Positions 13,635 to 51,532 of a stretch of 53,327 nt of DNA are shown piece by piece. Every line of letters begins with the position of its first letter. Position 1 is the stretch's first letter. The notes beneath the pieces are model-generated. The model was given only the letters and a program-made list of their open reading frames with translations, did no database searches and had not been told where the DNA came from. A program made the translations under genes and the position numbers. The stretch is from a virus: positions 1 through 53,327 of IMG/VR virus record IMGVR_UViG_3300025413_000034, one strand, 5' to 3'.

Positions 13635-16600
13635 TTACCTCTTTCTAAAGCGAGCAACTGCACCAACGGCAACAGTTATTACTAATATCTTTTTGGCTTT
13701 CTTTCTTGTAACAGGAGACATGTCGTTACCGATATTTGCCATTGCGACAAATGCATGGTTAAGTGCTTGTGCGCCAGGTACTGCTGCGATTGCTCCTGTT
13801 ACTGGTGTCTCAATAACTGGAACAGCAACGTCTGGTGCATTGAATGAAGTGCCGCCTGGTTGTCCGATAAATGTGTCCGCAGTAGTAATCGCCTCTGGAG
13901 GAATTGGAAGACCAGATCCTGGAGGTGGTGCAGGAGGAGTTAATTTTCCATCTTCTTGAACAACCTGTGGTGCTGATTGTGTGCCGAAGAATTGGATACC
14001 GCCGTTTTCAACGCCCTTCACGTCTACCTGTACGTGAGGAACAAGCACCTCTGCAGGAGCAGGCTTTGGTATGTCTGTAGGAAGTTGAGCGGCGTTATTT
14101 GGAACAATGCCGATTTCCTTAAATGCTTGAATTGCAGTAGGAGCCAAGTACTTCTCTGGAGCAACTGCAGGAACATATGTTTCTGCTGTAGTATTTGTAG
14201 TCACTACAACAACAGGAGGTGCTGGTGGAGGAGTCGGGGCAGGAGTTGGAGTTTGAGTTTGCTTGGCCGCATCAGCAGCAGCCTTGGCAGCGGCTGCATC
14301 CTGAGCAGCCTTAGCGTCTGCTGCGGCTTTATCAGCAGCCGCTTTATCTGCGGCGGCTTTAGCATCTGACGCTGCTTTATCAGCAGCGGCTTTGTCTGCT
14401 GCAGCCTTATCTGCTGCGGCTTTATCAGCAGCAGCCTTATCAGCAGCATCTTGTGCAGCCTTAGCATCGGCCGCAGCCTTAGCAGCATCTGCTGCAGCCT
14501 GTGCATCTTTAGCGGCTTGAGCAGCCGCAGCATCAGCAGCGGCCTTTGCATCAGCAGCGGCTTGAGCATCTTTTGCTGCTTGTGCTGCTGCGGCCTCTTG
14601 CGCTGCTTTTGCATCGGCTTCTGCTTTTGCAGCAGCGGCATCTGCAGCCGCTTTAGCCTCATCAGCAGCCTTTGCTTCTGCAGCAGCCTGTGCGTCTTTG
14701 GCAGCCTGTGCTGCAGCGGCAGCATCAGCGGCTGCTTTAGCATCTGCAGCGGCTTTAGCGTCGGCTGCTGCTTGTGCATCTTTCAATGCCTGTGCTGCTG
14801 CGGCTTCTTGAGCCGCCTTTGCATCCGCTGCTGCTTGAGCGGCGGATTGTGCATCAGCCGCATCTTTTGCTGCCTGTTCTGCTGCAGCGGCTTGTTGTGC
14901 TGCTAATGCCTCTGCTGCTGCTTTTGCTTCTGCGAGTTGTTTAGCAGCCAGAGCATCCGCCGCTTCTTTGTCTGCTGCTGCTTTGGCCTCTGCAGCCTGT
15001 TGCGCTGCAAGTGCATCTGCTGCGGCTTGAGCGTCAGCGGCTTGTTGTGCGGCTAATGCATCAGCGGCTGCTTTAGCAGCAGCGGCATCTGCTGCTGCTT
15101 TCTTTGCAATCTCATCTTGAATTGTTTGTGTTGATTGAGCAAGAGTCGTTGCTGCTGTGTTGGCAGCCTGTACTGCTGTATCTGCTGCAGCGTTAGCAGT
15201 GTTAGCATCTCGTGTAGCGGTGTTTTGTGCCAAATCTAATACGGTCTGTTGTACTGTAAGGTTTTGTTGTGCTTGTGTGAGGTTTTGCTGTGCAACTGTA
15301 AGGTTTTCTTTAGCAGTTGCTAGATCAGCCTGGGCTTGGTCGTAAGCGACCTGTGCAGCAGCCGTAGCAGCAACGTTATCAGAAGCAGCATGAACAGCAC
15401 TGTTGTAGGCATCCCATGCAGCATTTCGTTCGGCTAACTTTGCATCGTATGCAGCCTGAGCATCTACTACTGCTTGAGCAGTTGTTGGCACCGCTGCTTG
15501 TGCTGTTGTTAACGTCTGAGTTGCTGTGTTAAGAGTTGCTTTAGCGTCTAAAACAGATTGTTTAATGGGGTCAAGTGCAGCAACTGCTGTATTGGCAGCC
15601 TGTACTAATACTGGGTCTTTGGTAGTTGTAGTCGCAGCAAATGCGCTGGCTCCAGGAGTTGTGAAGTACCCAGTGCCATCTGCTTTAGTAATACCCCAAC
15701 CAAGAGTTACTCCAGCACCGCCACCGTTTTCGTAATACCAAATAGTAAGTTGTTGCGTTTGCCCACCAGTTACTGAATAGGTTGGACTATATGGACTCCA
15801 CGTTGGTCCTTGATCTCTCCAGTTGCTTATTGCAAGAGTTCCATCAACGTAAAGTTTTGAGCCGTCGTCTGAGTACACAGCGTACTTGACAGCAGTGGCG
15901 TCTGATGGAACGGTAATTGTTCCATCAAAACGAATGATGACATGGTCTGCTAAACCAGAGTTTAGAACAATACCACTGCCCCAGTTAAAAGCAATGTTAG
16001 GGACTGTAGTAGTAAGAATTGGTGTGGGATTAGCAATAGAAGGAGCAGCACCATTTGTAGCACGATAAACAGTTGCGGTTACTCCATTGGTCGTTGTTGT
16101 AACAGCAGAAGCATTAGCATCCGCCTGTGCTTGTGCAGCGGCATTTGCAGCATCAGTAAGCGCCTGTTCTTGTGTAGCAACTTGAGTTGTTGCTGAATCT
16201 ACGGTTGCTTGAGCAACGGGTACTGCGGAAACTGCTGCGTCTGCTGCTGCTTGGGCTGGAGCAATTTGGTCATGAAGAGGGCCTAATTCAGCATTGGTAT
16301 TGTAAAAGTGAACGCATGCGGAACCTTCTGTACATGCGGCAGCAGCATCAAGGGCTGGTTGTGCATCCTGCGTTGTAATCAAAATTGTGTTAGTAGATGC
16401 AACCGTTGCTGTTGCGCTATCTACCGTAGATTGAGCAATCGTTGTATCTTTAATGGCGTTAGCCACTGTAGCGGATGCTGCGTCTACACCAGCCTGAGCA
16501 ACAGGGACCACCGCTGCTGATGCTTGGGCAGTTGTAAGAGCGGTTGTTGCCGCAGCAATCGCTGTAGTTGCTGTATTAATTGCGGTTGTAGCATCTGCAA

Positions 16601-17309
16601 CAGCCTGTTGAGCCACAGGAAGTTCTGTCACTTTGTTCTGTACATCAGGGATTGCCTGGAGAGTGGTAGTAGAGTTAGTTACCGCAGTCTGCACTGTAGC
16701 CGTTGCTGTATCGATCTTAGAGGAGACAGAGTCCAATGATATGGAAGTCAAAGAAGATGAGGGCGTTGGAGCAGGAGATTGCAAATTATCAACGTGATCG
16801 GATACAACTGTTGAAGGTGTTGAAGACGATGGATCAGGCGTTGGAGCGGGAGCAGGAGTTGACGAAACGGTTGACGAAGAGTTTGTTGAAGAGGAAGAAG
16901 TAGATGAAGAAGATAATGAGTCTGATGTTGGTGTTGGTGTTGGCTGTGATTGCGTCGTTTGGTTTGCTGCGAAGTCTGTGGAAGTAGATGGAGTCGTGGA
17001 TGTGGTTGGTGCTGGTGCTGGCGTTTGTTCTGGTGTTGGCGTTACCTGTGGCGCTTGTGACTGCGCTACTGGTGCGCTATTTGTTGTCGTGGAAGCCGCT
17101 ACAACTGTGGAAGTATCAACAACCGTGGCAACAACAATCGGCAGAGGCGCAACAACGCTCGTTGAATCGGTTGAAGAAGTCTGAGTAGTATCTGCATGTG
17201 CGGAGGTAGCAAAAGATAAGCAGAAGAGCGCTGCTCCTCCACCTAAACTTGCTGTGATGATACGTTTGCGTGAGTCAGATTGTGCTGCGAATGTACGCAG
17301 TGGTTTCAA
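13635..17309 (-). CDS. Giant secreted protein: signal peptide, PA14 lectin-like domain, Ala-rich coiled coil, C-terminal membrane anchor
   Basis: 1224 aa. TTG start at 17309 with GAGGGG about 5 nt upstream. Residues 1-40 are a signal peptide (basic start, ASLGGGAALFCLSFATS core, AHA-D cleavage site). Residues 40-170 are a Ser/Thr/Pro linker and 180-400 are helical. Residues ~405-560 form a PA14-like carbohydrate-binding domain (YAVYSDDGSKLYVDGTLAI, then LTIWYYENGGGAGVTLGWG). Residues ~730-1015 form an uninterrupted Ala/Lys/Asp coiled coil (KAAADKAAADKAAADK). A Pro-rich segment follows, then a short hydrophobic helix (KKILVITVAVGAVA) and a basic end RFRKR. No LPxTG is seen. It is probably exported and displayed across the wall. 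Its role (adhesin, exclusion, lysis, fibre) is open. Its position beside membrane mini-proteins is notable. Confidence 0.75.
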   Translation of the reverse strand: MKPLRTFAAQSDSRKRIITASLGGGAALFCLSFATSAHADTTQTSSTDSTSVVAPLPIVVATVVDTSTVVAASTTTNSAPVAQSQAPQVTPTPEQTPAPAPTTSTTPSTSTDFAANQTTQSQPTPTPTSDSLSSSSTSSSSTNSSSTVSSTPAPAPTPDPSSSTPSTVVSDHVDNLQSPAPTPSSSLTSISLDSVSSKIDTATATVQTAVTNSTTTLQAIPDVQNKVTELPVAQQAVADATTAINTATTAIAAATTALTTAQASAAVVPVAQAGVDAASATVANAIKDTTIAQSTVDSATATVASTNTILITTQDAQPALDAAAACTEGSACVHFYNTNAELGPLHDQIAPAQAAADAAVSAVPVAQATVDSATTQVATQEQALTDAANAAAQAQADANASAVTTTTNGVTATVYRATNGAAPSIANPTPILTTTVPNIAFNWGSGIVLNSGLADHVIIRFDGTITVPSDATAVKYAVYSDDGSKLYVDGTLAISNWRDQGPTWSPYSPTYSVTGGQTQQLTIWYYENGGGAGVTLGWGITKADGTGYFTTPGASAFAATTTTKDPVLVQAANTAVAALDPIKQSVLDAKATLNTATQTLTTAQAAVPTTAQAVVDAQAAYDAKLAERNAAWDAYNSAVHAASDNVAATAAAQVAYDQAQADLATAKENLTVAQQNLTQAQQNLTVQQTVLDLAQNTATRDANTANAAADTAVQAANTAATTLAQSTQTIQDEIAKKAAADAAAAKAAADALAAQQAADAQAAADALAAQQAAEAKAAADKEAADALAAKQLAEAKAAAEALAAQQAAAAEQAAKDAADAQSAAQAAADAKAAQEAAAAQALKDAQAAADAKAAADAKAAADAAAAAQAAKDAQAAAEAKAADEAKAAADAAAAKAEADAKAAQEAAAAQAAKDAQAAADAKAAADAAAAQAAKDAQAAADAAKAAADAKAAQDAADKAAADKAAADKAAADKAAADKAASDAKAAADKAAADKAAADAKAAQDAAAAKAAADAAKQTQTPTPAPTPPPAPPVVVVTTNTTAETYVPAVAPEKYLAPTAIQAFKEIGIVPNNAAQLPTDIPKPAPAEVLVPHVQVDVKGVENGGIQFFGTQSAPQVVQEDGKLTPPAPPPGSGLPIPPEAITTADTFIGQPGGTSFNAPDVAVPVIETPVTGAIAAVPGAQALNHAFVAMANIGNDMSPVTRKKAKKILVITVAVGAVARFRKR

Positions 17310-17343: not shown

Positions 17344-17550
17344 TTATAGCGGTTTCCAATTCTTATTCACTATAAAGTTTTCCCCTCCAGAGTTAACAGA
17401 TTCGCCTTCAACTCCACGCCCTGGAGAAGACCATGTAACAACTGATGGATTTGCTACAGATTTAATCATTGGTTGAACATACTGAAATTCTTGTTTAATT
17501 CCACGACGTTGATTCACCATTAGAGTTTTACGATTAAGTTGTTTACTCAT
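17344..17550 (-). CDS. Hypothetical basic protein
   Basis: 68 aa (MSKQLNRKTLMVNQRRGIKQ), basic N-terminus, then 'SVVTWSSPGRGVEGE'. It overlaps the next-upstream gene by 8 nt. The family is not recognised. Its N-terminus is only loosely similar to the shared L-[SN]-x-x-[QE]-F motif of its neighbours and is not counted among them. Confidence 0.5.
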   Translation of the reverse strand: MSKQLNRKTLMVNQRRGIKQEFQYVQPMIKSVANPSVVTWSSPGRGVEGESVNSGGENFIVNKNWKPL

Positions 17551-17752
17551 TTTCTTCCTTTAAATACTTAATGGGATCGTGTCCTTTAAACTGCTTCTTT
17601 GATAATGGACGTGGACCACCACTTGGGGGAAGTTGCATCAAAGCCCCAATACCTTCAGCGGAGTATTGATGTGTAGCAATCTTATGAGCAGCCTGTTCTT
17701 GATCAGTCCTAATTTGAATGTTTGGTTGTTTGCGTGGTTTGTACTTTGACAT
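17543..17752 (-). CDS. Hypothetical protein with internal LSKKQF motif
   Basis: 69 aa. Residues 50-55 are LSKKQF, followed by GHDPIKYLKEENE, matching the motif found near the N-terminus of many other late-strand proteins here, but placed near the C-terminus. The start overlaps the upstream stop by one base. No domain is recognised. Confidence 0.5.
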   Translation of the reverse strand: MSKYKPRKQPNIQIRTDQEQAAHKIATHQYSAEGIGALMQLPPSGGPRPLSKKQFKGHDPIKYLKEENE

Positions 17753-18057
17753 TACGCAGGAGACCCGCCTGCAGCACCTGCTGCACTTGCTGCTGTGCCA
17801 CCTTCACCCATGCCGTTAGCGGTACCAAGACCCATAGAGTCTTCGTGCGCTTCTTGTGCTGGTGTTTCACTTGCTTCATCTGAGGTAGAGGTTACAAGAT
17901 TGCCAGCAGACATAGCACTTGTATAGGCAGGATACATAGTCCATGCATTACCGATTCCTGCATATGCTCCGAGAAGACCTTGACGCATAGCGCGATGGCG
18001 CTTCATTGCCTCAATATCGTGAGCCTTTTCAAACTGCTTGCGACTAAGATTGCTCAT
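17752..18057 (-). CDS. Hypothetical protein with N-terminal NLSRKQF motif
   Basis: 101 aa. Residues 3-9 are NLSRKQF, followed by a helix (EKAHDIEAMKRHRAMRQGLL), an aromatic stretch (AYAGIGNAWTMYPAYTS) and an acidic/Ala/Gly tail. It is the clearest example in the 17-18 kb cluster of the recurrent L-[SN]-x-x-[QE]-F tag. It overlaps the upstream mini-gene by 14 nt. Confidence 0.55.
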   Translation of the reverse strand: MSNLSRKQFEKAHDIEAMKRHRAMRQGLLGAYAGIGNAWTMYPAYTSAMSAGNLVTSTSDEASETPAQEAHEDSMGLGTANGMGEGGTAASAAGAAGGSPA

Positions 18058-18160
18058 TTAAGTTTCCTTGGTTGTAGTTACCGTATTGACCAGCGGGACT
18101 TCCGTACATGCCGTTACTAGCATGCTGGAACTGCATCACAGAAAGATTATTGTTTCCCAT
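18044..18160 (-). CDS. Mini-protein (38 aa) with N-terminal NLSVMQF motif
   Basis: 38 aa, ATG 18160 to TAG 18044: MGNNNLSVMQFQHASNGMYG then a Gly/Tyr/Asn-rich end. Residues 5-11 match the tag motif. It overlaps both neighbours by 14 nt, filling what would otherwise be a gap. The motif match and tight packing argue it is real. It consists of little more than the tag and a short tail. Confidence 0.55.
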   Translation of the reverse strand: MGNNNLSVMQFQHASNGMYGSPAGQYGNYNQGNLNEQS

Positions 18161-19617: not shown

Positions 19618-19935
19618 TCAGTCAGCCTGAATGCCGATACTCTCTAAATACTTGTCTTTCTCTGTTAGGAGATAGGTCTTGATCTGTTCTTGTCGTTCTG
19701 CAATCTGTTCTTCTGTCTTGGTAATCATCTCTTCGTCTAATTCTTCCTTGTGCTCGTTAAACTGCTCTACTGCGTAGTCCAGTACTGATTGAAATCCTGC
19801 TGCTTGAATCTGGGCCGCAGTCCAGCGGTCCTCTGCTTCCTTATTGCGCTTTGCAATAAGTGCATCTAGTTGAAGAGCCTGACGCTCTTCGATCTTCTTC
19901 TGTCGGTTTGACTTATAAAGAGTCTCTTCGCTCAC
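19618..19935 (-). CDS. Charged helical hypothetical protein
   Basis: 105 aa, nearly all helix-forming Lys/Glu/Gln (KSNRQKKIEERQALQLDAL; EEMITKTEEQIAERQEQIK). No family is recognised. It is coupled (ATGA) to the Ntn-hydrolase gene immediately upstream, so it could be a partner or substrate of that enzyme; this is inference. Confidence 0.5.
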   Translation of the reverse strand: MSEETLYKSNRQKKIEERQALQLDALIAKRNKEAEDRWTAAQIQAAGFQSVLDYAVEQFNEHKEELDEEMITKTEEQIAERQEQIKTYLLTEKDKYLESIGIQAD

Positions 19936-20480
19936 TTATATTGCTCCATAGTCGTTAGTGGTCCTGATGAGTAGACGCTAAACCTGCAAGCGATCTCAAC
20001 TGCTTCTTCTGGATTGGCTCCAGCCGCCAAAGCGCCCAATGCGTAGTTCTCTCCAGAACCCACAGCATACAGGCCATCGCCCGTTCTACAAACTGAGAGA
20101 TCATCAGCAACGTCGAATAACTCTCCGCAGACTGCGATCAAGAAGTGAAAGCGCTGCTCGTTAGCCTTGCCATCGCCCTTGCCCTCATTGAAGTCGTAGC
20201 CATTCTCTGTCAAACACTTGCGCATGGATGGCATCGCCTTGGTTATAACAAAATGATAAACGTCTTTTCTATCGGTGGCAGTAACCTTAGGTGGTACCCA
20301 GAAGTGCTGCACGATGTCGCATGGACTGACTTCACCACTGCCTGCAACTAAGAATGCGCCTCTTTGGGCGATCTTCTTCATATCAGGATGATTAAAGCGG
20401 CGACCTTGATCGTCAGTCACTTGATTGTCAGCAACAATGACGCATCTGTCTTCGTACTGGACTCCCACGATGGTTGTCAT
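19932..20480 (-). CDS. Proteasome beta/HslV-like Ntn hydrolase
   Basis: 182 aa, close to HslV length. After Met removal the chain begins 'TTIVGVQYEDRCVIVADNQV', with Thr1 as N-terminal nucleophile and Asp17. Lys34 or Lys35 follows in 'NHPDMKKIAQ', as in the HslV catalytic triad. 'GLYAVGSGENYALGALAAG' is the conserved Gly-Ser-Gly segment, and the end 'EEAVEIACRFSVYSSGPL' also matches HslV. It should self-assemble as a threonine peptidase. No HslU-like unfoldase is in the window. It may work with a host ATPase, process virion proteins, or degrade host factors. ATGA couples it to the next gene. Confidence 0.8.
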   Translation of the reverse strand: MTTIVGVQYEDRCVIVADNQVTDDQGRRFNHPDMKKIAQRGAFLVAGSGEVSPCDIVQHFWVPPKVTATDRKDVYHFVITKAMPSMRKCLTENGYDFNEGKGDGKANEQRFHFLIAVCGELFDVADDLSVCRTGDGLYAVGSGENYALGALAAGANPEEAVEIACRFSVYSSGPLTTMEQYK

Positions 20481-22339: not shown

Positions 22340-22840
22340 ATGTCAAAAGTAGTAAAATTAAGCAAAGAAGAAGTAAGAGCCTGCGCAGATATTGCCCTTA
22401 ATCGCTGGATGATGAAGTGGGGATCTGTAGACCGCCCTAATTATGCAGGAGACAATAAGGCTAAGTTAGAGCCAGAGATTGCCGCCAACGTCAGAACGAT
22501 CGTTGCTGAGTATGCCGTAGCCAAACTCTACAAGCAGTCATTTACATTTCCCTTTTACACCAATGAAGAGCACCCATTTAGAAAAGACATTGCTGATGTG
22601 GGCACAAACATTGAAGTCAAATCCATCCGCACTCGTGATGAGATTCCAGTCTTTCCTAAAGATATACGACCTGGATGGCTGCTCGTGGGCGCTCGCGTGC
22701 TAGACCGCGACTACTACTCAGAGGTAGAGGTATTTGGTTGGATTAAGATGGAGGATGTGCAACGTGATGAGTGGCTCTATGCGCCAGAAGGTTCGTGGAG
22801 AATCCCACTAGATCAGTTTAGCGACGAGCCTATCGCTTAG
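22340..22840 (+). CDS. PD-(D/E)xK-type nuclease-like phage protein
   Basis: 166 aa. A helix with Glu57 (RTIVAEYAVAKLYKQ) is followed by 'RKDIADVGTNIEVKSIRTRD', giving Asp86 and Glu92-x-Lys94, the PD-(D/E)xK core. Then come hydrophobic strands ('GWLLVGARVLDRDYYSEVEV' and 'FGWIKMEDV'). This fold underlies many restriction, recombination and repair nucleases; the substrate is not evident. It is leaderless by position and transcribed divergently from the His-rich gene. Confidence 0.7.
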   Translation: MSKVVKLSKEEVRACADIALNRWMMKWGSVDRPNYAGDNKAKLEPEIAANVRTIVAEYAVAKLYKQSFTFPFYTNEEHPFRKDIADVGTNIEVKSIRTRDEIPVFPKDIRPGWLLVGARVLDRDYYSEVEVFGWIKMEDVQRDEWLYAPEGSWRIPLDQFSDEPIA

Positions 22841-23042
22841 GCTCCCAGTGCTTATGCTCCTGGCCTTCTTGGAATGCGCCATCAGCATGCATCTGGTTAT
22901 GCATCTCTTCAATCTCAGAAGGACCAACGCCACCCCAACCTTGGGCTGGAGCACCCTTGTGATAACTGTGGATGTGCCACTTCGTTAGATGACGGCTATT
23001 AGGCTTTGGAACCCACTTAGTCTTCTTTGGCTCTTCGATCAT
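22830..23042 (-). CDS. Small His/Trp-rich hypothetical protein
   Basis: 70 aa (MIEEPKKTKWVPKPNSRHLT, then WHIHSYHKGAPAQGWGG). Rich in His and Trp. It overlaps the end of the convergent plus-strand gene by 11 nt, and its ATG overlaps the upstream mini-gene stop as ATGA. The family is not recognised. Confidence 0.45.
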   Translation of the reverse strand: MIEEPKKTKWVPKPNSRHLTKWHIHSYHKGAPAQGWGGVGPSEIEEMHNQMHADGAFQEGQEHKHWEPKR

Positions 23043-24576: not shown

Positions 24577-24614
24577 GGGTTCAACGTAGTACGATGTATT
24601 GAACCTGTCAATTG

Positions 24615-24685
24615 CTCCCTGGCCTGGATTCGAACCAAGATACTCGCCTCCAAAGGGCGATGTCCTACCGTTAGACGACCTGGGA
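24615..24685 (-). tRNA. tRNA-Gln (anticodon UUG)
   Basis: Cloverleaf on the minus strand: acceptor 5' TCCCAGG pairs with 3' CCAGGGA with one A-A mismatch; D stem GTCT/GGAC; anticodon stem TCGCC/GGCGA with loop CTTTGGA (anticodon TTG); T stem CTTGG/CCAGG with loop TTCGAAT. Discriminator G; no encoded CCA. It reads CAA (and CAG by wobble). It lies directly downstream of the tagged-protein operon. The Gln-rich collagen-like fibres are the obvious beneficiaries. Confidence 0.9.
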
Positions 24686-24698: not shown

Positions 24699-24809
24699 CT
24701 AGCCCAAACTGTTGGCGGCTACAGGTGTATCTGTTGGGGCAGTTCCGATGTCATCTGACTCAGTCCGCATCTGTTGCAGATGGTTTTGAAACTCTTCTCT
24801 AGAGAGCAT
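24699..24809 (-). CDS. Mini-protein (36 aa) with N-terminal LSREEF motif
   Basis: ATG 24809 to TAG 24699: MLSREEFQNHLQQMRTESDD then a polar tail. Residues 2-7 are the Glu variant of the shared tag (compare LSDEEF at 51 kb and LSMSEF at 51.5 kb). Coupled by TAATG to the preceding gene. Last gene of the tagged operon before the tRNA. Confidence 0.5.
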   Translation of the reverse strand: MLSREEFQNHLQQMRTESDDIGTAPTDTPVAANSLG

Positions 24810-25018
24810 TACTCTTTGCGCCAAACTCTGATGACCTGCTCTGGATCATACTCAGTAATACCTGGGGCTTTTGATCCCCGTAACTTATGGGCGGCTACCA
24901 TCTTGTCACCGATCATCTTTGCCGCATGGACACGAAGTTTACCCGCAGCATCTAAACGATCTCCTGGCTGTATCTCCTTGGCAGGGATATTAAATTGCTT
25001 ATGGTTGAGGTTGCTCAT
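24809..25018 (-). CDS. Tagged small protein (NLNHKQF)
   Basis: 69 aa. Tag at residues 3-9, then 'QPGDRLDAAGKLRVHAAKMI' and 'EQVIRVWRKE'. The body has a short beta/helix look, perhaps an SH3- or AbrB-like barrel (GDRL, RVHAAKM), but I cannot assign it. One-base overlap with both neighbours. Confidence 0.55.
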   Translation of the reverse strand: MSNLNHKQFNIPAKEIQPGDRLDAAGKLRVHAAKMIGDKMVAAHKLRGSKAPGITEYDPEQVIRVWRKE

Positions 25019-25497
25019 CAGTACTCGACCTTGCCAGAGACGCGGATATTAGGATGCTTCTGGCCTACCTTGCCCATGATGTGGCCTACTGCTGGATCCA
25101 TCATCTTGCCAAAATTTACAGCAGAAGGATTATGGGTATTGATCAAGGTCTCAAGGGCGGTTTGAGCCACGCCACTGCCTTGCAGATGGTTTCTTGTCTT
25201 CATGTAGTGGATGTGTATGGCATCGCCGTGCTTCTCGTAGTCAACGAATCCAGCGGCATTCTCTCCTGCGCCTGGTTTGACTTCTACCTTTGGCTTCTTC
25301 AATGGCTTACCAGTTTTGCCGCGACTCACTACTCGCTGCGTCTCATCGAGGTAACTCTCTGGCTTCTCTACGCCAGCAGTGGCCTCAGGGTGGCGCACCA
25401 CCAGTCTCTGCACAGGCCCTGATGATGCTGGGTAGGTGAGAGGACTGGTTGTATGGTCAATATCAAATTGCTCAGGGTTGAGGTTACGTGGACTCAT
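25018..25497 (-). CDS. Tagged GNAT-like protein (NLNPEQF)
   Basis: 159 aa. Tag at residues 5-11. The mid region is basic and disordered. The last ~75 residues ('GDAIHIHYMKTRNHLQGSGV', 'AQTALETLINTHNPSAVNFG') resemble the acetyl-CoA-binding half of a GNAT acetyltransferase, with R-x-x-x-x-G-S-G in the pyrophosphate-loop position. The assignment is weaker than for the next gene. Confidence 0.5.
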   Translation of the reverse strand: MSPRNLNPEQFDIDHTTSPLTYPASSGPVQRLVVRHPEATAGVEKPESYLDETQRVVSRGKTGKPLKKPKVEVKPGAGENAAGFVDYEKHGDAIHIHYMKTRNHLQGSGVAQTALETLINTHNPSAVNFGKMMDPAVGHIMGKVGQKHPNIRVSGKVEY

Positions 25498-25787
25498 TTG
25501 TTCTCTCCTTTATACCCGTTGATCCAAGCGTCGCCCTCTTCTGTCCTTACATCCGAATGAACGGGTTTTGTAATTCCTTTATCTTCCGCAATTTCGTGAG
25601 CCTTGTCCCATAGAGCGGTCGCTACACCCTTACGACGATGTTCAGGGTTGACCATAAGACCCCGTACATCACCCTCTTCTTTCGTCCACTCTATACCGCC
25701 GACCTTTGTGTCACCTGATGTAGCGTAAATACGGTGCTTTGAAGGTGTTTCCTCATAGTTGAACTGAAGATTGCTTAGGGCGCTCAT
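25494..25787 (-). CDS. Tagged GNAT N-acetyltransferase (ALSNLQF)
   Basis: 97 aa. Tag at residues 3-9. Then a compact GNAT domain: strand 'TKVGGIEWTKEEGDVRGLMV', motif A 'NPEHRRKGVATALWDKAHEI' (R-R-K-G-V-A) and 'VHSDVRTEEGDAWINGYKG'. It would transfer an acetyl group from acetyl-CoA to an amine on an unknown target. Sits within the tagged operon by 4-nt overlaps at both ends. Confidence 0.75.
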   Translation of the reverse strand: MSALSNLQFNYEETPSKHRIYATSGDTKVGGIEWTKEEGDVRGLMVNPEHRRKGVATALWDKAHEIAEDKGITKPVHSDVRTEEGDAWINGYKGENK

Positions 25788-26170
25788 TCTTTAGTCTCTT
25801 TAGGTGGAGTGCGTTTTACTACGGATTTTTTGACTCTTCCACGTGGTTCAATGTCCTTGGGTTCTGCAAAGGTACGTGGACGCGACACTGGAAGTTTGCT
25901 TTTAATCTTAAAACCTTTTTTACTGATATAGACGTTAGGCATTGAAAACTTCTCAGTGTGCTCGTCTGGCTCAACCTCGTACACGTTCTTACCGTAGAGT
26001 TGTGCTTCCGATAAATCCGTTGTCGCAAAAGCCACGTGTTTTCCTACTATATCTTTATTATTGTCAAAGCCTTGAAGCCTAGCCTCTACCATGCCTGGTA
26101 CCTTGATGTGAGTATTGCTTCCATGGTAGAGTTTAAACTGGTTACCCGACAAGTTATCTTCGGCGCTCAT
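25784..26170 (-). CDS. Tagged ADP-ribosyltransferase-like protein (NLSGNQF)
   Basis: 128 aa. Tag at residues 6-12, followed at once by 'KLYHGSNTHIKVPGMVEARL' (the H-G-S NAD-binding motif position), then 'GKHVAFATTDLSEAQLYGKN' and 'VYEVEPDEHTEKF'. The pattern fits the small Arr/ART fold (H-Y-E/D type). It would move ADP-ribose from NAD+ to a target protein, nucleic acid or small molecule. The C-terminus is basic. Phage-injected ARTs are known from T4 (Alt), so early delivery is plausible. Confidence 0.65.
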   Translation of the reverse strand: MSAEDNLSGNQFKLYHGSNTHIKVPGMVEARLQGFDNNKDIVGKHVAFATTDLSEAQLYGKNVYEVEPDEHTEKFSMPNVYISKKGFKIKSKLPVSRPRTFAEPKDIEPRGRVKKSVVKRTPPKETKE

Positions 26171-26673
26171 CCTTGTAACTCCCTAAAGTGACCAGGATGT
26201 AATTCCTTGGGTTGGTAGGTATCTCCTGGAAAGTTTGCCCAACTTCTTGTCAAAGTTAATGGAGATCCAATTCCCTTTTTCTTTCGTGTTGCAATACCGC
26301 CACCGTAGCCTGTAGACCATACAGTTACAGGGACATGGGTATGTCCTGCTTGTTCAGCCGCAAGAAGGCGATGATGGCCTTCTCCCAAATACCCCCACTG
26401 ATGTTCAGTATTATGTTCAAGAACCAATGGCTCTCTAATAACGCCACCCTTGCGTAATTCATCGGCGATGTTGTTGATGCGTTCTGCACTATCAGGCTGT
26501 GACTCAGCCCCCTGACGATTAAACTCTGTGTATCTCTTCATGACAGATACAGGGATCATTTTGGTAATAGAACGTGATGTATCGCCCTCCATATGACCCA
26601 AACCACCAGATCGAATGATGTTGGTGCCTTCAGGAACAGGAACACCAAATTGATTAGGGTTGAGGGCGCTCAT
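26167..26673 (-). CDS. Tagged ParB/Srx-fold protein (ALNPNQF)
   Basis: 168 aa. Tag at residues 3-9. The ParB/sulfiredoxin-like core has 'ERINNIADELRKGGVIREPL' and 'WGYLGEGHHRLLAAEQAGHT' (the G-x-G-H-H-R catalytic/nucleotide-binding motif) then 'VPVTVW'. In this superfamily the motif binds CTP/ATP and can support nuclease or ATPase activity; ParB-like domains are frequent in phage polyvalent proteins. No HTH is seen, so it is not a partition ParB. Confidence 0.75.
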   Translation of the reverse strand: MSALNPNQFGVPVPEGTNIIRSGGLGHMEGDTSRSITKMIPVSVMKRYTEFNRQGAESQPDSAERINNIADELRKGGVIREPLVLEHNTEHQWGYLGEGHHRLLAAEQAGHTHVPVTVWSTGYGGGIATRKKKGIGSPLTLTRSWANFPGDTYQPKELHPGHFRELQG

Positions 26674-26912
26674 GGATTCTGCTTCTTATGCGCTTCCCAG
26701 GCTTCGCTAATTCCTTTTTTGTCTGCGTAATGCCATTGATCTACTGGCTTATTGCCTAGACCTGGATTTACATCTGTTGGGTGCTTAATGCTATAGGTAT
26801 CGCAGTGTTCACAGCCAAGATTTACTCCACCATTGGTTATAAACTTCACCATCTTGTGGCGGCGCTTGCCTGACTTGGTAAATTGCTTGCCTAGGTTCTC
26901 TTCAGCGCTCAT
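26670..26912 (-). CDS. Tagged zinc-finger-like protein (NLGKQF)
   Basis: 80 aa. Residues 6-11 (NLGKQF) are a one-residue-shorter form of the tag. Then a basic stretch (TKSGKRRHKMVKFITNGG) and 'LGCEHCDTYSIKHP', a C-x2-C site. First of the chained tagged genes, coupled by ATGA at both ends. Confidence 0.5.
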   Translation of the reverse strand: MSAEENLGKQFTKSGKRRHKMVKFITNGGVNLGCEHCDTYSIKHPTDVNPGLGNKPVDQWHYADKKGISEAWEAHKKQNP

Positions 26913-29057: not shown

Positions 29058-29312
29058 ACCAGCGCGGTGACGAAAACCTCTCGTGAGTGCCTAATTACAC
29101 ATGGACTACTCGATCATTCACTCTCTTGATCGATCAGCAAGTCGGTGCGCTCGTCTCCCGAATCTCTACGGAGTAACTCGGCAGTGAAGAGACCAACTGA
29201 TGAACGCGATGAACGCGATGACCCCAGCAATGGGCGAGCGGTGAGCGGTACTTCATCAGCCAGCGTAAACCGACCCAGAGATCTACGAATGACGATAGGC
29301 GAATCAACCTTT

Positions 29313-29461
29313 AATTAGAGGGGCTGGTCATGGACTGCCAGCAATGGTGCAGGCGGTACTCATTCCGACCGACAGACCAGTGAAGCCAGCCCCCACTAAT
29401 TGCCACCAGATCTTCTCACGACTCGATCGTGGGCGGTTCTGGTAGCAATCTGGTGCTATCA
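29313..29461 (+). other. Structured leader upstream of the early-type operon
   Basis: Long outer stem: AATTAGAGGGGCTGG (29313-29327) with CCAGCCCCCACTAATT (29386-29401); inner CTGGTC/GACCAG. A second nested element has CACCAGAT...ATCTGGTG arms with an inner CACGA...TCGTG. Related CTGGTCATG...CCAGCA elements recur before the next gene, suggesting a conserved RNA leader or operator. Confidence 0.5.
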
Positions 29462-29480
29462 ATAACGAAAGGCAAATCCA

Positions 29481-29795
29481 ATGAACTACTTCGTAGTCGT
29501 ATGTCCAGACGGCAACTTCAGTCTCCGTCAATCAGAGTCAGCAATTTATACCCACGCATCGTGTCTAACCGATGATGAGGGCTGGGGCGTACTCGGCTTT
29601 CATAAGACCGCAAAGAGTGGCTTGTCCGCATTAAAGACCTACATCAATCGGAAAGTGAAGTACGGCAAGCCTGCGCCATATGTGAGTGGCGTTATTGAGA
29701 CCCAGCAGATCGATCGTAAGACCTACAACGATCTCAAGTCTGGAAAGATCACTGGCTCAGATCTAGTGATCGGCAAGGTCGAAACAGCCCTCTAG
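29481..29795 (+). CDS. Hypothetical early protein
   Basis: 104 aa (MNYFVVVCPDGNFSLRQSES), mixed alpha/beta; 'LSALKTYINRKVKYGKPAP' and 'GKITGSDLVIGKVET'. Ribosome region GAAAGGCAAATCC is repeated exactly before the next gene. The family is not recognised. First gene of the plus-strand block. Confidence 0.6.
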   Translation: MNYFVVVCPDGNFSLRQSESAIYTHASCLTDDEGWGVLGFHKTAKSGLSALKTYINRKVKYGKPAPYVSGVIETQQIDRKTYNDLKSGKITGSDLVIGKVETAL

Positions 29796-29801
29796 GGCTG
29801 T
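29784..29801 (+). terminator. Hairpin spanning the stop codon
   Basis: ACAGCCC-TCTA-GGGCTGT, perfect 7-bp stem. The TAG stop is within it. No T run, so probably attenuation or mRNA end protection. Confidence 0.45.
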
Positions 29802-29884
29802 CTGCTGGTCATGCCAGCACTGACGAGACCAATGTCAGCAATCACTCGCAAACTGGTGCAGTGATCAAGTGAAAGGCAAATCCA

Positions 29885-30061
29885 ATGTCACTAACTGCAA
29901 AGGGCAAGATCAAGCAAGAATCTCGCCTCAATCTCGATAACACGATCTACGACTTCGAGATTGACTTCGACACGATCAGCGACCTTGAGGACTTCATCTC
30001 CTACAACCGCAACCAGATCGTGGAAATCCGCTTCACTGGCAAATTGAAGAGGGAGATCTAA
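29885..30061 (+). CDS. Small hypothetical protein (58 aa)
   Basis: MSLTAKGKIKQESRLNLDNT, then an acidic middle (DFEIDFDTISDLEDFISY) and basic end. Preceded by the same 17-nt GAAAGGCAAATCCAATG segment as the gene before it. Confidence 0.5.
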   Translation: MSLTAKGKIKQESRLNLDNTIYDFEIDFDTISDLEDFISYNRNQIVEIRFTGKLKREI

Positions 30062-30065
30062 TTCA

Positions 30066-30248
30066 ATGGCAAAGCAACGCGTATTTATCGACACCGAAGG
30101 CAAGATCGTTGCCAAAGGCACGATCTCCCCTCAACTCATCGACCTGCTTCTCGCAGACGGCACTCGCTTCTTCTCGACCCGATCAGAGGGCTTCGAGATC
30201 AACTTCATCAAGTCACTCAACATCGCAAAGATCGTGAAAGGGGCGTAA
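30066..30248 (+). CDS. Small hypothetical protein (60 aa)
   Basis: MAKQRVFIDTEGKIVAKGTI; compact alpha/beta with 'GFEINFIKSLNIAKIVKG'. Close spacing to neighbours (4 nt and 2 nt). No family recognised. Confidence 0.5.
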   Translation: MAKQRVFIDTEGKIVAKGTISPQLIDLLLADGTRFFSTRSEGFEINFIKSLNIAKIVKGA

Positions 30249-32403: not shown

Positions 32404-32679
32404 ATGAAAGAAAATCTGATGTACCAATTCGAACTCGATGAACTCGGCATCATGGGCGCAATGCTCGCTAAGTCTCTCGACTTCGCCAATGATCAAGATG
32501 CACCAACAGTCATCATCGCCACTCTCGAATCTGCACTCGATAAATTGCAAGTGATTATCGATGCACGATGCGAAGAACATAACGCCTTCGTGGATATCAC
32601 CGAGTCACTCGATGATCTCTTCGATGTATCGCGTGCAATCGTTAAAGACCCAGAAGTATCCACACCAGATTACAACTAA
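32404..32679 (+). CDS. Hypothetical acidic helical protein
   Basis: 91 aa from ATG 32404 with AAGGGGAG 4 nt upstream. 'YQFELDELGIMGAMLAKSLD' and 'IATLESALDKLQVIIDARCE' suggest a helical bundle. It lies directly before the AAA ATPase. Confidence 0.5.
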   Translation: MKENLMYQFELDELGIMGAMLAKSLDFANDQDAPTVIIATLESALDKLQVIIDARCEEHNAFVDITESLDDLFDVSRAIVKDPEVSTPDYN

Positions 32680-32689
32680 GGAGCAATCA

Positions 32690-33562
32690 ATGAATCCACT
32701 CAATCAACTCGTGCCAACTCTTGAATCTCAAGAGCACTACATCGACCGCAACTGGTGCGGTGTCTCTGGTCTGCAGATCGCAGACTTCGCTCGCAAGCAT
32801 AAGATCAATATGCTCAACGCTGGTCATGCTGGTACTGGTAAGACTTCATTCGCTCAGTACTACGCGAGCCAGCGTGGTCTGCCGTATGTAGATCTCCCTT
32901 CTAACTCGGCACTCAGTGCGAATGAGTTGCAAGGCAACTGGGTCTCTGGTGACGGCAAACTCGACTGGGTCGACTCGATCTATGTCGAAGTCTGGCGCAA
33001 TGGTGGCGTGCTCAATCTCGGTGAGATCGATCAACTCGCAAAGAATGCTCAATTCTTCTTCCACCCAGCCATGGATCATCGTCGTACTCTCACGCTCACT
33101 GCCAAAGATTACGAAGTGGTGACTGCTCACCCAGATCTCATCGTGATCGCTGACTGGAATCCTCTTTATCGCGGTCGACAACCTCTCTCTGAGTCGTGGG
33201 CTGATCGCTTCCAACTCAAACTGCGTTACGAGTACGACCGCGACATCGAGAGCAAGATCATCAAGTCAGAATCGCTTCTTGATCTCGCGTTCGGTATGCG
33301 ATCTCAGTCTCGTGGTGTTGATCTCGGTCATGCGAGCAAGTCGACAGTGTTCGAGACACCGATCACTCCACGCATTCTCAAGACCTTCGAACTCGTAGCG
33401 AAGGAATTGAGTTTCGATCTCGCCTGTGAGATCTTCACCAATAACTTCACTGATGAAGAACGCCCAGCAGTCAAGATGCTTCTTGAAGGCGCGTCGTTCA
33501 ATATCAAAGATGAACTCGGCATCGATAACGATGCAGTAACAACTCAGCACGAATCAGTCTAA
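32690..33562 (+). CDS. CobS/MoxR-like AAA+ ATPase
   Basis: 290 aa from ATG 32690 (MNPLNQLVPTLESQEHYIDR), with AAGGAG upstream. Walker A 'NAGHAGTGKTSFAQYY', Walker B 'GGVLNLGEIDQLAK', sensor 1 'LIVIADWNP', arginine-finger region 'SESWADRFQLKLRYEYDRD'. The closest familiar proteins are CobS (cobaltochelatase small subunit) and MoxR ATPases, which act on a VWA partner. The VWA gene follows 10 nt downstream. Cyanophages and large phages carry cobS homologues. Here it may insert Co into a corrinoid or remodel a VWA-bound client. Confidence 0.75.
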   Translation: MNPLNQLVPTLESQEHYIDRNWCGVSGLQIADFARKHKINMLNAGHAGTGKTSFAQYYASQRGLPYVDLPSNSALSANELQGNWVSGDGKLDWVDSIYVEVWRNGGVLNLGEIDQLAKNAQFFFHPAMDHRRTLTLTAKDYEVVTAHPDLIVIADWNPLYRGRQPLSESWADRFQLKLRYEYDRDIESKIIKSESLLDLAFGMRSQSRGVDLGHASKSTVFETPITPRILKTFELVAKELSFDLACEIFTNNFTDEERPAVKMLLEGASFNIKDELGIDNDAVTTQHESV

Positions 33563-33572
33563 GGAGCACTAC

Positions 33573-35516
33573 ATGGACAAGATCAATGTAACTGATCTCG
33601 GAGAGATCTTCGATGCACTCAAAGAACTCACCGAAGATCAGAAGGCAGAAGAGGCTAAACGCCAGCGCATCGAACGCTTCACTGGCTTCTTCTCTCGCGT
33701 GAACTCTGCCTTCACATTCCGACCAGTGACAGTGACAGTGGAGTCATCACCGATCAAAGCACCAGCGTGGTCTGGTGCTAGCGATGTCCACTTCAATGCC
33801 AATGAGATCGGTGAACTCGACACTGCGGAGTCGATCGCCAGCATCAAGGGTCTTGATCTGCATGAGGTCAGCCACATTCTCTACACCAGCAGAGAAGGTA
33901 GCGATCTTGTCTCGTCAGTGATCGATAAGAAGATGTGGACTGCATTCAATGCGTTAGAAGATCAGCGCATCGAGTCATTCTTCACTGCAAAGTATCCTTC
34001 GACTGTCGCGTGGTTCTCAGCGATGATCTTGACTCACTTCAAGAGCAACCCAGAAGTGTTCGAGAACTCGTACCCACTACTCTGCGGTCGCAGGTATCTG
34101 CCAGTCGAGATTCGCAGAGAGTCTCGTGCGCTCTATCCTCATCAGGACAAGGTCGATGAGTTTAAGGCGATCATCAATGAGTACCGCACTCTCGTATTCC
34201 CCACCGATACAGATCGCGGTCTTGAGTTGATCGAGCAGTATTACAACCTCTTGCCGAAGAGTGAAGGTGGCAATGGTGATGAGACTGGCGAGACTAAGTA
34301 CAAGGCAGTCAATGGCGATGCAGAAGGCGGTCGACCAGTGAAGGTCATTGACCCATGCGGTCATGGCTCACGACCTAATGAGGGTATTGAGTCAACTCCT
34401 ACCTCTCGCCCAGTACCACCCCGCCAGCAGGAGAAGGAGCGCGATCGTGCTGGTAGCAAGCCAGAAGATCTCGATGACGATCTCCCAGAGATCAAGGCAG
34501 AGGATATCGACTGGTCTGACTTCGATGATCAGGGCGATGATCAGGGCGATAAGTCTGATGAGACAAGTAACTCTGACGGCGGAGAGTCTGGTGATGCAGA
34601 AGTTACTCCACCAGAGGGCGAGTCAACGGCTGGTGCTGATGCCAGCGAGATGATCTCGACAATGCTCGAAGAGATTCTTAGCGAGTCAGGTATCGCTCAG
34701 GAGATCAACGACATTCTTCGAGTCATCAGTGGTCAGCCCACTCTCACATCGAATAACTCACAAGAGCCAGAGCGTGCTCGCTATAGCGAGATCTCACCAG
34801 ACTCAGTGACAGTCGATGCATCACGATCATTCGGTCGTGAACTCGAACGCCTGCGTGCCTCATTCGACCCAGCATGGGATAGATACGAGAACTCTGGTCG
34901 CTTGAGTGTCGGTCGATATATGCGTGGCGATGACTTCGACACGATCTTCGACCAATGGAATGAAGGTCGTGAAGATGCGACTGACATCGAATGCGTGATC
35001 GCTATTGATCACTCTGGCTCGATGTCTGGTAGCAAGATCGCCAATGCAAATCGTGCGATGTATGCAATCAAGCGAGCACTCGATCGCATCGATGCAAGCA
35101 CGACAGTGATCGCATTCTCTGACGAGACTCATCTCCTCTATCGCGCAAGCGAGAAGGCAAACTCTCAGATTCGAGATTCATTCAGTGGTGGTGGCACTAC
35201 CCCAGATCAAGCGATCAAGTACGCAACGAAGTTGCTTGCAGAGAGTGATCGCAAGATCAAGATCTTCTTCGTGATCACTGACGGCGAGTGGTACGGAGAT
35301 CAGACTACGAATGAAGATGCAATAAAGCGCATGGGTCAGTCTGGCGTGCTGACTGCGTTCGCTTATATCCCAGAGAAGAATGAAGAGGTCGTACTCACTG
35401 CAGAGAAGGCTCACAACTGTGAGATCGGTGCAGTAGTTGCTAACCCATTCGATCTCGTCACCATGGCAAGAGCGATCGTGAAGTACGCGATCTCTCGCAG
35501 ACTCACTAACGCGTAA
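33573..35516 (+). CDS. CobT-like protein: metallopeptidase-type N-terminus, acidic linker, VWA domain
   Basis: 647 aa. 'LDLHEVSHILYTS' gives an HExxH zinc site (H97-E98-x-x-H101). 'FNALEDQRIESFF' about 28 residues later provides the acidic third ligand and mirrors the CobT 'ALEDARVE' segment. Residues ~300-360 are an acidic linker as in CobT. The C-terminal VWA has the MIDAS 'IAIDHSGSMSGSKI' (Asp479), Thr in 'SGGGTTPDQAI' and Asp in 'FFVITDGEW'. With the upstream AAA ATPase it forms the classic ATPase-VWA pair of chelatases and MoxR systems. Confidence 0.75.
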   Translation: MDKINVTDLGEIFDALKELTEDQKAEEAKRQRIERFTGFFSRVNSAFTFRPVTVTVESSPIKAPAWSGASDVHFNANEIGELDTAESIASIKGLDLHEVSHILYTSREGSDLVSSVIDKKMWTAFNALEDQRIESFFTAKYPSTVAWFSAMILTHFKSNPEVFENSYPLLCGRRYLPVEIRRESRALYPHQDKVDEFKAIINEYRTLVFPTDTDRGLELIEQYYNLLPKSEGGNGDETGETKYKAVNGDAEGGRPVKVIDPCGHGSRPNEGIESTPTSRPVPPRQQEKERDRAGSKPEDLDDDLPEIKAEDIDWSDFDDQGDDQGDKSDETSNSDGGESGDAEVTPPEGESTAGADASEMISTMLEEILSESGIAQEINDILRVISGQPTLTSNNSQEPERARYSEISPDSVTVDASRSFGRELERLRASFDPAWDRYENSGRLSVGRYMRGDDFDTIFDQWNEGREDATDIECVIAIDHSGSMSGSKIANANRAMYAIKRALDRIDASTTVIAFSDETHLLYRASEKANSQIRDSFSGGGTTPDQAIKYATKLLAESDRKIKIFFVITDGEWYGDQTTNEDAIKRMGQSGVLTAFAYIPEKNEEVVLTAEKAHNCEIGAVVANPFDLVTMARAIVKYAISRRLTNA

Positions 35517-46661: not shown

Positions 46662-46673
46662 GTCCTAAGTCTA

Positions 46674-46946
46674 TTAGTTTTGTGGGCTTTCTATGCCTCT
46701 ATCGCTCAGTGCTTCTGCAACAGTTTCTGCCACAGTTGGCTCTGCTGGAGGGGTAAGGGCGTTTATAACGGCTTGAGCAACACGGTTTGCTAAAAGACGA
46801 TTTTCGATCTCTGAGACCAACTCCTTGGAAGTTTGCAAGATGTCGTAAGGTGTTGCCTGACGAGAAACTCCCGCACCTGCTGCCGTTGCGGTGGTGCTGA
46901 CTGTTCCGTCATCATTTATGGTTACTGTGTAAATTGCTTGTGCCAT
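46674..46946 (-). CDS. Hypothetical protein
   Basis: 90 aa. 'MAQAIYTVTINDDGTVSTTA' beta-hairpin start, then helical 'LVSEIENRLLANRVAQAVI' and acidic tail. Coupled closely to the next Cys-rich gene (stop and start abut). No family recognised. Confidence 0.5.
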   Translation of the reverse strand: MAQAIYTVTINDDGTVSTTATAAGAGVSRQATPYDILQTSKELVSEIENRLLANRVAQAVINALTPPAEPTVAETVAEALSDRGIESPQN

Positions 46947-50233: not shown

Positions 50234-50628
50234 CAGATCACCTCAATCTCTACTCGATTACGACGATTTGCCGTTCGTATGTTGTGGCAGTTGGCGCAAA
50301 CCACATCACACTTTGCTATTTCTTCCCACAGTTTTTCACGACTGTAAGACCCGATCTCTTCACCAATATTGAACTTTTTATCAGTACCAGGAATATGATC
50401 AAATTCTAATGCTGCAGGATGGGCGTTGTACCCGCAATCTGCGCATCCTTTTGCTACTTGATACTCGTGAATTTCTTTAGTTTTTTGTTTTACAAGTGGT
50501 CGTGTGTATTTAACGTATAAACAACGATTACACATGGCTTGTCTTGTGCCTACTTGACGTCCACCACGCATTTTAAACTTGGAGATGGGTAAATCCTGCT
50601 CACAGGATGTGCAGGTTTTGGTCTCCAT
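50233..50628 (-). CDS. HNH endonuclease
   Basis: 131 aa. Zinc pairs 'KTCTSCEQDLPISKFKMRGG' and 'MCNRCLYVKY', then 'KGCADCGYNAHPAALEFDHI', 'IAKCDVVCANCHNIRTANRR'. Same architecture as the HNH protein at 37.7 kb. It sits between two tagged/virion genes with one-base overlaps, an unusually seamless insertion for a homing-type enzyme. Confidence 0.82.
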   Translation of the reverse strand: METKTCTSCEQDLPISKFKMRGGRQVGTRQAMCNRCLYVKYTRPLVKQKTKEIHEYQVAKGCADCGYNAHPAALEFDHIPGTDKKFNIGEEIGSYSREKLWEEIAKCDVVCANCHNIRTANRRNRVEIEVI

Positions 50629-51290
50629 TACTCACGACCGATCGCTTTGCGCTGTCTTAGGGCACGATTTGTGTTAATAGTCTTGAGGACATCACCCAAA
50701 GTGTGTGGCTTCTGCTCCCCTGTCTCAGGGTCACGCATCATTCCACCAACGACATTCCAGTCTTTATTTTGGTACTCGTACTTTGTAAGTCCGCCCTTGC
50801 CGTCCTTCATGTCGAGGGCTCCAGGACGATAGTTTTCGTTTGCGCTCTCTTTACCGAACTGTCCCATGTGAAGGAGTACTGCGCCTCCACCTGGACCAAC
50901 GGTTGCACCCTTGCGATTTACAGGTGTGTGAGGCAGTGCGTATGACTCCATCTCGCCCTCAGATGTGCCCATCGCCTTTGCTGCGTTAGGTGTTGGTGCT
51001 TGTACAGAGATGTCTTGAGTTTTGCCCCATGCACCATGGACAGGTGCTAGTCCTGTGCGTGCTGGGACTTTTGCTGCTTCCTTTGCCCATTTAGCGCGAT
51101 AGGTACTGATGTTCTTACCTGTGAGAGCGCCACGCTTCTTTGTGTGTTCTGCAATAGGGACTGCTGCAGTCATAAACCCACGACCTGTTACAGGTTCACG
51201 GTCAAAGTACCCAACAGAGCCACCGCCAGTACCACCCTCTGACTCTGGCTTATTGACGTGAGCAGCAAACTCTTCGTCGCTAAGTGGCAT
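50628..51290 (-). CDS. Tagged hypothetical protein (LSDEEF)
   Basis: 220 aa. Residues 3-8 LSDEEF, followed by AAHVNKPESEGGTGGGSVGY. Mostly Gly/Pro-rich with basic patches ('TKKRGALTGKNISTYRAKWA') and a helical end ('LGDVLKTINTNRALRQRKAI'). No domain recognised. Likely virion-associated. Confidence 0.55.
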   Translation of the reverse strand: MPLSDEEFAAHVNKPESEGGTGGGSVGYFDREPVTGRGFMTAAVPIAEHTKKRGALTGKNISTYRAKWAKEAAKVPARTGLAPVHGAWGKTQDISVQAPTPNAAKAMGTSEGEMESYALPHTPVNRKGATVGPGGGAVLLHMGQFGKESANENYRPGALDMKDGKGGLTKYEYQNKDWNVVGGMMRDPETGEQKPHTLGDVLKTINTNRALRQRKAIGRE

Positions 51291-51292: not shown

Positions 51293-51532
51293 TTACTCCT
51301 TGATGGCTGGAAGTGAAGACTGATTATCTTCAAACTTGTAAACAGTTCCTGCAGTCTTTGATGAATACGGAAGTGTGCGTCCTTGTCCCAATGAGCGGTT
51401 AGACCACGCGGTGGCTGCTGCGCTACTTGTGTTGGTTGCCGAACTTAACGAGAGTGGTGGAGGTGTTTCAGTGTGTTGCTGAAACATCTGTCCAGTCTTG
51501 TTGTTGTCACCAAACTCGGACATTGATAACAT
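51293..51532 (-). CDS. Tagged small protein (LSMSEF)
   Basis: 79 aa from ATG 51532, just after the upstream TAA: MLSMSEFGDNNKTGQMFQQH, then a Ser/Thr/Ala-rich tail. Residues 2-7 match the Glu form of the tag. Other open frames across this stretch lack such features. Confidence 0.55.
   Translation of the reverse strand: MLSMSEFGDNNKTGQMFQQHTETPPPLSLSSATNTSSAAATAWSNRSLGQGRTLPYSSKTAGTVYKFEDNQSSLPAIKE

Follow-up and report, generated by a model that had tools for sequence, protein, structure and literature searches.

Seven consecutive genes in a virus of a lineage frequent in freshwater contigs (IMG/VR record IMGVR_UViG_3300025413_000034, one virus record of 53,327 bases, analysed whole and here called the window) encode proteins with different bodies that all start with L[SN]xx[QE]F or LGKQF. 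They are minus-strand open reading frames (ORFs) at 24699-26912 with overlaps of 1-4 nucleotides (ATGA/TGATG/TAATG), and the ORF calls bore out the gene order and start peptides that an earlier sequence-only reading of this DNA had described. For this short peptide, hereafter the tag, we observed a sharp boundary, selection at the protein level, diverse bodies behind it, cassette swapping, restriction to one strand and a genome-wide concerted variant. At a probability of roughly 0.6 we read the tag as a docking signal for a common late phage partner, likeliest the prohead or portal, by which cargo would be packed into the virion and carried to the next host.

The tag is concentrated at protein starts and is constrained as a peptide

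Simple gene calls covered the window together with 206 loci of related contigs, which had been retrieved by searches with the terminase, MoxR, the ParB body and the ADP-ribosyltransferase (ART) body, and with a DNA pattern for MxNLSPxQF. Among the 3,147 unique ORFs from the window and its relatives, L[SN]xx[QE]F occurred 110 times at an offset of 0-12 and 30 times elsewhere, which is a 37-fold N-terminal enrichment per position, and several of the 30 are N-terminal tags with mis-called starts. Reversed, frame-shifted and spacing-shifted control patterns were enriched 0 to 6-fold, the exception being L[SN]x[QE]xF (21-fold), a pattern that overlaps with the tag in that LNPEQF-type tags match it too. 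The background rate predicts about 0.1 tagged starts in the window. The enrichment relative to the controls rules out a chance or low-complexity artefact, and it also disposes of the possibility, raised in the sequence-only reading, that the motif is as common at any other position of unrelated proteins. When the MxNLSPxQF pattern was run against 2.9 million viral contigs it found 48 stretches, nearly all of them from this lineage with a few isolated matches, and most of these stretches hold several tagged genes apiece; an earlier, narrower pattern (MSxLSPxQF) had given six contigs only, unrelated or isolated.

The tag has the consensus N-[LI]-[SN]-x-x-[QE]-F and is preceded by a few residues, frequently MSAEDN- or MSN-; such prefixes are found repeatedly on differing bodies. 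It is about 6-7 residues long, with LGKQF as a 5-residue form, and the variants include [LI][SN]xxQF, LSxQF, LGKQF and, rarely, W for F or LF for QF. In an alignment on the F with one sequence per body family, N stands directly before the tag in 224 of 303 proteins and 18 of 27 families. This residue is absent from the search pattern and its preference is therefore independent of the search, while the L, S/N, Q/E and F columns were set by the pattern and thus carry no independent weight. Information content drops to background two residues beyond the F.

The tag positions draw on the full sets of six Leu and six Ser codons, so the constraint is on the protein and not on DNA or RNA, and this codon diversity together with the differing offsets rules out a nucleic acid element such as a leader or a coding constraint from gene overlap. 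In both structure models that were made (for the products of 25784-26170 and 26167-26673) the first 8-10 residues are the lowest in confidence, as expected in such models for a free tail. In structural chemistry, L-[S/N]-x-x-[E/Q]-F is known as a hydrophobic staple with a capping box, and it is therefore plausible that the tag forms a one-turn helix that is presented to a partner.

The seven products of the tagged operon

The first gene (26670..26912) encodes an 80-amino-acid protein, MSAEENLGKQF-, with the 5-residue tag form, and its homologues (family D8) have LGKQF in all cases. By eye it is zinc-ribbon-like (CxxC...H), and Pfam and PHROG searches with it gave no match. The next product (26167..26673, 168 amino acids, MSALNPNQF-) has a ParB_N/sulfiredoxin (Srx) fold with a GEGHHR motif; its AlphaFold model (pLDDT 80.7) matched Noc/ParB/Srx in Foldseek with a probability of 1.00, PHROG ParB matches agreed, and 55 distinct homologues carry the tag. 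A scan of 84,980 species genomes confirmed no bacterial or prophage homologue of this ParB body.

It is followed by a 128-amino-acid protein (25784..26170, MSAEDNLSGNQF-) that aligns with a large tagged family (alignment A3). Its model is of medium quality (pLDDT 62), the top three Foldseek matches are Arr (probability 1.00, E 3e-3 to 1e-2), and a related tagged protein (L214) matches Pfam Arr-ms at E=2e-4, slightly under the cut-off. By its model the protein has an Arr-type ART fold, with NAD-dependent transferase activity as a prediction. The 97-amino-acid product of 25494..25787 (MSALSNLQF-) is a GNAT acetyltransferase (Pfam PF00583, E=3e-9, above the cut-off), and the 159-amino-acid product of 25018..25497 (MSPRNLNPEQF-), with nine distinct tagged homologues (family D6), is weakly GNAT-like (PF14542, E=0.006, below the cut-off).

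The last two genes encode a 69-amino-acid protein (24809..25018, MSNLNHKQF-), whose homologue in L302 has the degenerate tag MSRASEF, and a 36-amino-acid product (24699..24809, MLSREEF-) conserved in L003, L004, L007, G010, L155 and L160. Directly downstream, a tRNA-Gln(ttg) gene (24614..24685, minus strand) anchors the 3' end of the operon; it was also found in L003, L004, L007, L104, L155 and L160. The bodies that the sequence-only reading had proposed thus held for the ART-like (Arr-like by fold), ParB/Srx (by fold) and GNAT (by Pfam) proteins; its second, GNAT-like protein has the sub-threshold match only, and its zinc finger the cysteines and histidine seen by eye.

One tag on many bodies

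In related freshwater viral contigs we counted 303 distinct tagged proteins whose bodies form 42 clusters, defined by the lack of a BLASTP link at 1e-3; of these clusters about 38 are left once evident spurious frames are removed; some of the ART and GNAT clusters may be related to one another at the fold level. The proteins are about 35-513 amino acids long and apparently single-domain. Families assigned via Pfam or fold include the ParB/Srx fold, Arr-like ARTs, further ART-like families, several GNATs, a zincin peptidase and a LysM protein, and besides these there are zinc-binding-looking proteins and small Gly/Ser/Met-rich late proteins. The zincin-like peptidase (440-513 amino acids, HEIGH/HEVGH) was seen in two homologues only, which are 35% identical and have no Pfam match (L002:6264-7805, MPLGKQF; L257 near 3591, MPLGRQF), and the LysM protein is Gly/Ala-rich and lies inside a tail gene cluster (L119:9091-10071, equal to G017 29091-30071).

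A search with the PADLOC anti-phage defence library gave no meaningful match, and a sequence search of solved structures no useful one. The isolated Streptomyces phages BRock and LuckySocke have no N-terminal tag system, and the few chance matches in them are alternative starts or antisense ORFs. The tag also covers non-enzymatic small late proteins and occasional C-terminal sites, and it is hence broader than a tag for effectors. A short N-terminal signal shared by unrelated effector-type bodies, as first proposed, was thus found, and the proposed restriction to effectors was not.

A genome-specific form of the tag

In the related genome G018 the equivalent of the operon (L323, G018:28000-42000) encodes five unrelated bodies, namely two ART-like proteins of different families, a GNAT, a 183-amino-acid protein and a ParB-fold protein, and all five carry [IVM]G[QKR]QF. 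Their homologues elsewhere have L[SN]xxQF almost without exception; within the ParB, Arr-like and GNAT families (55, 46 and 21 distinct proteins) tags with I-G occur in the G018 members only, and when the IGQQF form was sought by a DNA pattern, the matches were G018 and a single unrelated contig. It follows that the tag changes by genome across bodies and not by body across genomes. Such genome-wise change is what a single co-evolving partner predicts, and it is predicted neither by vestigial nor by chance similarity. G018, a divergent relative, also has a transfer-messenger RNA (tmRNA) gene with the tag ATQNAYALAA (L124:12563-12853).

Strand, neighbourhood and cassette exchange

Six large genomes of the lineage contain 51 tagged starts, without exception on the strand that carries the head and tail genes and about three quarters of all genes. 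Tagged genes are also found inside virion clusters, as the LysM gene between tail genes of G017 and as genes upstream of the terminase. In related phages the tag thus follows the late strand and varied bodies, a point that the sequence-only reading had proposed to check by a motif search.

Around the tRNA-Gln gene, close relatives retain the ParB gene and the 36-amino-acid LSREEF/LSREQF gene, while the other bodies and their order are exchanged. The operon beside tRNA-Gln is a cassette hot spot, and the newcomer genes are mostly tagged or have a degenerate tag.

Further tagged genes of the window

Beyond the seven-gene set at least four more window genes are tagged near the N-terminus and one near the C-terminus, all on the minus strand. 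Three of them adjoin each other, encoding a 101-amino-acid late protein (17752..18057, MSNLSRKQF-, family D3 with 29 distinct members), whose orthologues in most relatives have LSxQF or LSxxQF, a 38-amino-acid late protein (18044..18160, MGNNNLSVMQF-, family D10), and a 69-amino-acid late protein with the motif near its C-terminus (17543..17752, PRPLSKKQFKGHDPIKYLKEENE) that is conserved in L003 and L023. The other two are a 220-amino-acid protein (50628..51290, MPLSDEEF-, family D14) and a 79-amino-acid protein (51293..51532, MLSMSEF-), whose start was inferred from its orthologues in L122, L105, L109 and L113, which have the tag in all cases. The L002 homologue of the product of 22830..23042 (minus strand) is tagged (MSAEDNLSPDQF-), but the window product itself is not. 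C-terminal copies of the motif occur in two late protein families; homologues of the window protein 12014-12349 in L043 (6899-7123) and L053 (882-1232) end in LNPNQFSHGVMW and ININGKQFSHGLEW, while the window protein itself ends without the motif.

Three candidates were set aside. MNPVEF in a small zinc-ribbon-like protein near 44-48 kb is internal to a 66-amino-acid ORF rather than at its start; LNPKQF near the C-terminus of ParB-like proteins in L165, L166 and L168 is probably part of the fold and was not counted; and the terminase N-terminus (INPEF, LSQQF), considered as an ancestral tag or partner, has LSPEEL and SQEF in BRock and LuckySocke and thus looks like ordinary helix sequence. The minus-strand region 46000-51500 and its equivalents in G010, G012, G016 and G017 hold a dense run of small lineage-conserved proteins between a g186-like gene and RuvC, and one family of this run (relatives of 49699-50184) starts with NLSPQQNWQSLG, near to the tag.

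The phage and its relatives

The nearest isolated relatives are BRock and LuckySocke (Borockvirus group), which share the order of head genes with the window. The window terminase, capsid and portal proteins are 52%, 62% and 55% identical to those of Streptomyces phage LuckySocke, and the BRock terminase is as close as that of LuckySocke. In the window the capsid gene lies at 3486-4610, the scaffold gene at 4646-5398 and the portal gene at 5526-7268. Sheath, tube and baseplate genes make the group myoviruses. At least 80 loci in freshwater contigs have terminases 80-100% identical to that of the window, and several records of this lineage reach 81-100 kb. The window is a fragment, since tail genes present in G010 are missing from it. 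Relatedness to the Streptomyces phages and WhiB-like matches, the only basis for a host assignment, suggest a freshwater actinobacterium.

The contig starts with a gene for a collagen-like Gly-x-y repeat protein (1-1900). A 1,224-amino-acid Ala/Thr-rich protein with a TTG start and a PA14 domain (13635-17309, minus strand), which resembles a surface or lysis-associated protein, adjoins the small tagged late genes. The late cluster further encodes a small proteasome/HslV-like Ntn-hydrolase (19932-20480, minus strand; Pfam Proteasome barely above the cut-off), possibly an unusual processing enzyme. On the plus strand there is an early-strand pair conserved in the lineage, a MoxR-type AAA ATPase followed by a VWA/CobT-like protein with HEVSH (32561-35516), and a tyrosine integrase (39211-40488) in a contig that otherwise looks like a lytic myovirus.

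Comparison with known delivery systems

In phage T4 the internal proteins Ip1-3 have no homology except for an N-terminal packaging leader (PMC12373910; PMC3012670), and many ip genes of T-even phages were found by means of this leader (PMC12373910). The tagged proteins are alike in having a short conserved N-terminal peptide before unrelated, small and hypervariable bodies, and the gene setting is reminiscent as well, T4 ipIII adjoining the lysis gene e and ipI lying near the tRNA block while here tRNA-Gln is adjacent and a CHAP endolysin downstream. However, the T4 leaders, read directly, are MKTFKEF (Ip1) and MKTYQEF (Ip2, Ip3), and they resemble the tag (e.g. NLSPKQF) only in [ST]xx[EQ]F. 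The tag starts without MKT and is not homologous to the leader, the phage lineage is a different one, and there are here far more body families, structural-type proteins among those tagged, and occasional C-terminal tags. A Peptidase_S78 prohead protease was found in none of six genomes of the lineage, in a search whose controls worked; the search covered known protease types, namely S78 and also S77, the latter without a positive control. The logic of the T4 comparison made in the sequence-only reading is therefore apt, as only a leader is shared (PMC12373910), whereas the leader sequence differs and no S78 protease was found in the six genomes searched.

For the P1 protein DarB the first 30 residues suffice to send a reporter into the capsid, and BLAST shows no N-terminal consensus shared by the Dar proteins (PMC9024508). 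The tag resembles the P1 signal for packaging injected defence proteins in being N-terminal, but unlike it shows a consensus that can be recognised across about 38 families. Polyvalent proteins unite ART, ParB-like and zincin-peptidase domains and were inferred to be packaged in virions (PMC5512222). All three classes are present among the tagged bodies, as separate small genes each with its own tag, whereas a polyvalent polypeptide has 2-15 domains. In MuF polymorphic toxins, toxin-type domains are proposed to travel with phage heads (PMC5576092, PMC5512222). These are defined by fusion to an N-terminal MuF domain, and this domain was found in none of the six lineage genomes, with positive controls in four known genomes. 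The tagged set is thus no member of the T4 Ip family, no MuF toxin and no strict polyvalent protein, and the tag system probably works like the T4 Ip leader while doing the job of polyvalent proteins.

What reads the tag

That a single common partner reads the tag is a strong inference from these data. We suggest that this partner is phage-encoded and acts late in infection, and that it is most likely part of the prohead or portal, a location in which we have moderate confidence by analogy. Tagged proteins would be taken up into the virion and pass into the next host together with the DNA; the tag would be modular, with fast-changing small effectors behind it (ARTs, ParB/Srx-fold proteins, GNATs, a zincin peptidase and zinc-binding proteins) whose proposed role is to alter or shield host targets within the first minutes of infection, and small structural-type late proteins would also be among the cargo. 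Injection and an anti-host function are likewise suggested with moderate confidence. The sequence-only reading is thus supported in part, for the shared signal on effector-type bodies, while packaging and injection remain inferences.

Several observations weigh against delivery in the virion. The tag is shorter than the T4 leader, and as neither MuF nor S78 protease was found, a T4-type pathway, in which proteins are targeted and then cleaved, is left unsupported. Replication genes share the strand of the head and tail genes, so that strand alone is no proof of a late or virion function and the strand restriction is supportive, not decisive. Some homologues are without a tag or have a degenerate form (LSxxLF, LSxxQW), and the 36- and 38-amino-acid products are too small for enzymes.

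The same peptide could dock its carriers onto something outside the virion, such as a complex formed late inside the cell, a host polymerase modified by the phage, an adaptor of a host protease or a hub for late effectors. All evidence for a common partner (enrichment, codons, bodies and G018) fits this equally, the computations do not identify the partner, and occasional C-terminal copies would suit any docking peptide. We nevertheless consider this serious rival rather unlikely, since the bodies match the virion-delivered repertoire (PMC5512222) and not late intracellular factors, the tagged genes are located in head and tail clusters, and the closest known parallel, a single leader shared by many unrelated bodies, concerns packaging into capsids. 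That cassette recombination produced the tag mainly as a side effect, with a conserved gene start as the crossover point and no binding function, is improbable. The operon is indeed a hot spot for swaps and its gene junctions are fixed, but the use of all synonymous codons shows that protein and not DNA sequence is shared, tagged genes also occur tens of kb from the operon, the offset from the start codon varies, and five bodies in G018 carry a variant specific to that genome.

Convergence of N-terminal helices on L-[S/N]-x-x-[E/Q]-F as a generic N-cap is very improbable. It would not give a 37-fold N-terminal enrichment, nor would the motif then be absent from the isolated Streptomyces relatives or limited to one strand, and in the Arr-like model the first beta-strand comes directly after the tag; all this has to be set against the helix-capping rule, which the motif obeys, and against rare internal matches such as LSQQF of the terminase, which lies in a conserved and probably helical N-terminal segment. 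Finally, the ARTs might be Trojan-horse toxins that hit eukaryotic predators, with the tag serving storage in the particle. Freshwater phages with VIP2-like ARTs, some of them predicted on Actinobacteria, have been reported together with this anti-predator hypothesis (PMC6802176). The ARTs here are, however, small Arr-like or other compact types without translocation domains, and ParB, GNAT and peptidase bodies carry the same tag, which makes grazers a most doubtful target.

Taken together, we return to a tag read by a partner in virion assembly. Whether it amounts to a genome-wide, swappable cargo-address system, in which one 6-7-residue peptide and a single co-evolving virion-assembly partner load about ten or more unrelated proteins per phage, both enzymes and structural-type proteins, into the particle for delivery, is in our estimate evenly balanced. 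Such a system would, at the same even odds, be a second, independently evolved and far more diverse counterpart of the T4 internal-protein leader. Effectors that phages inject are very difficult to spot from sequence, and the tag is a possible search key for them. It points to about 38 protein families, mostly unannotated and including several ART families and a peptidase, in widespread uncultured freshwater phages, and these families probably take effect at the very start of infection. Should a capsid or portal component bind the tag, the tag would be a minimal cargo signal as well, and the genome-specific variants would then make both the partner and the recognition rule testable.

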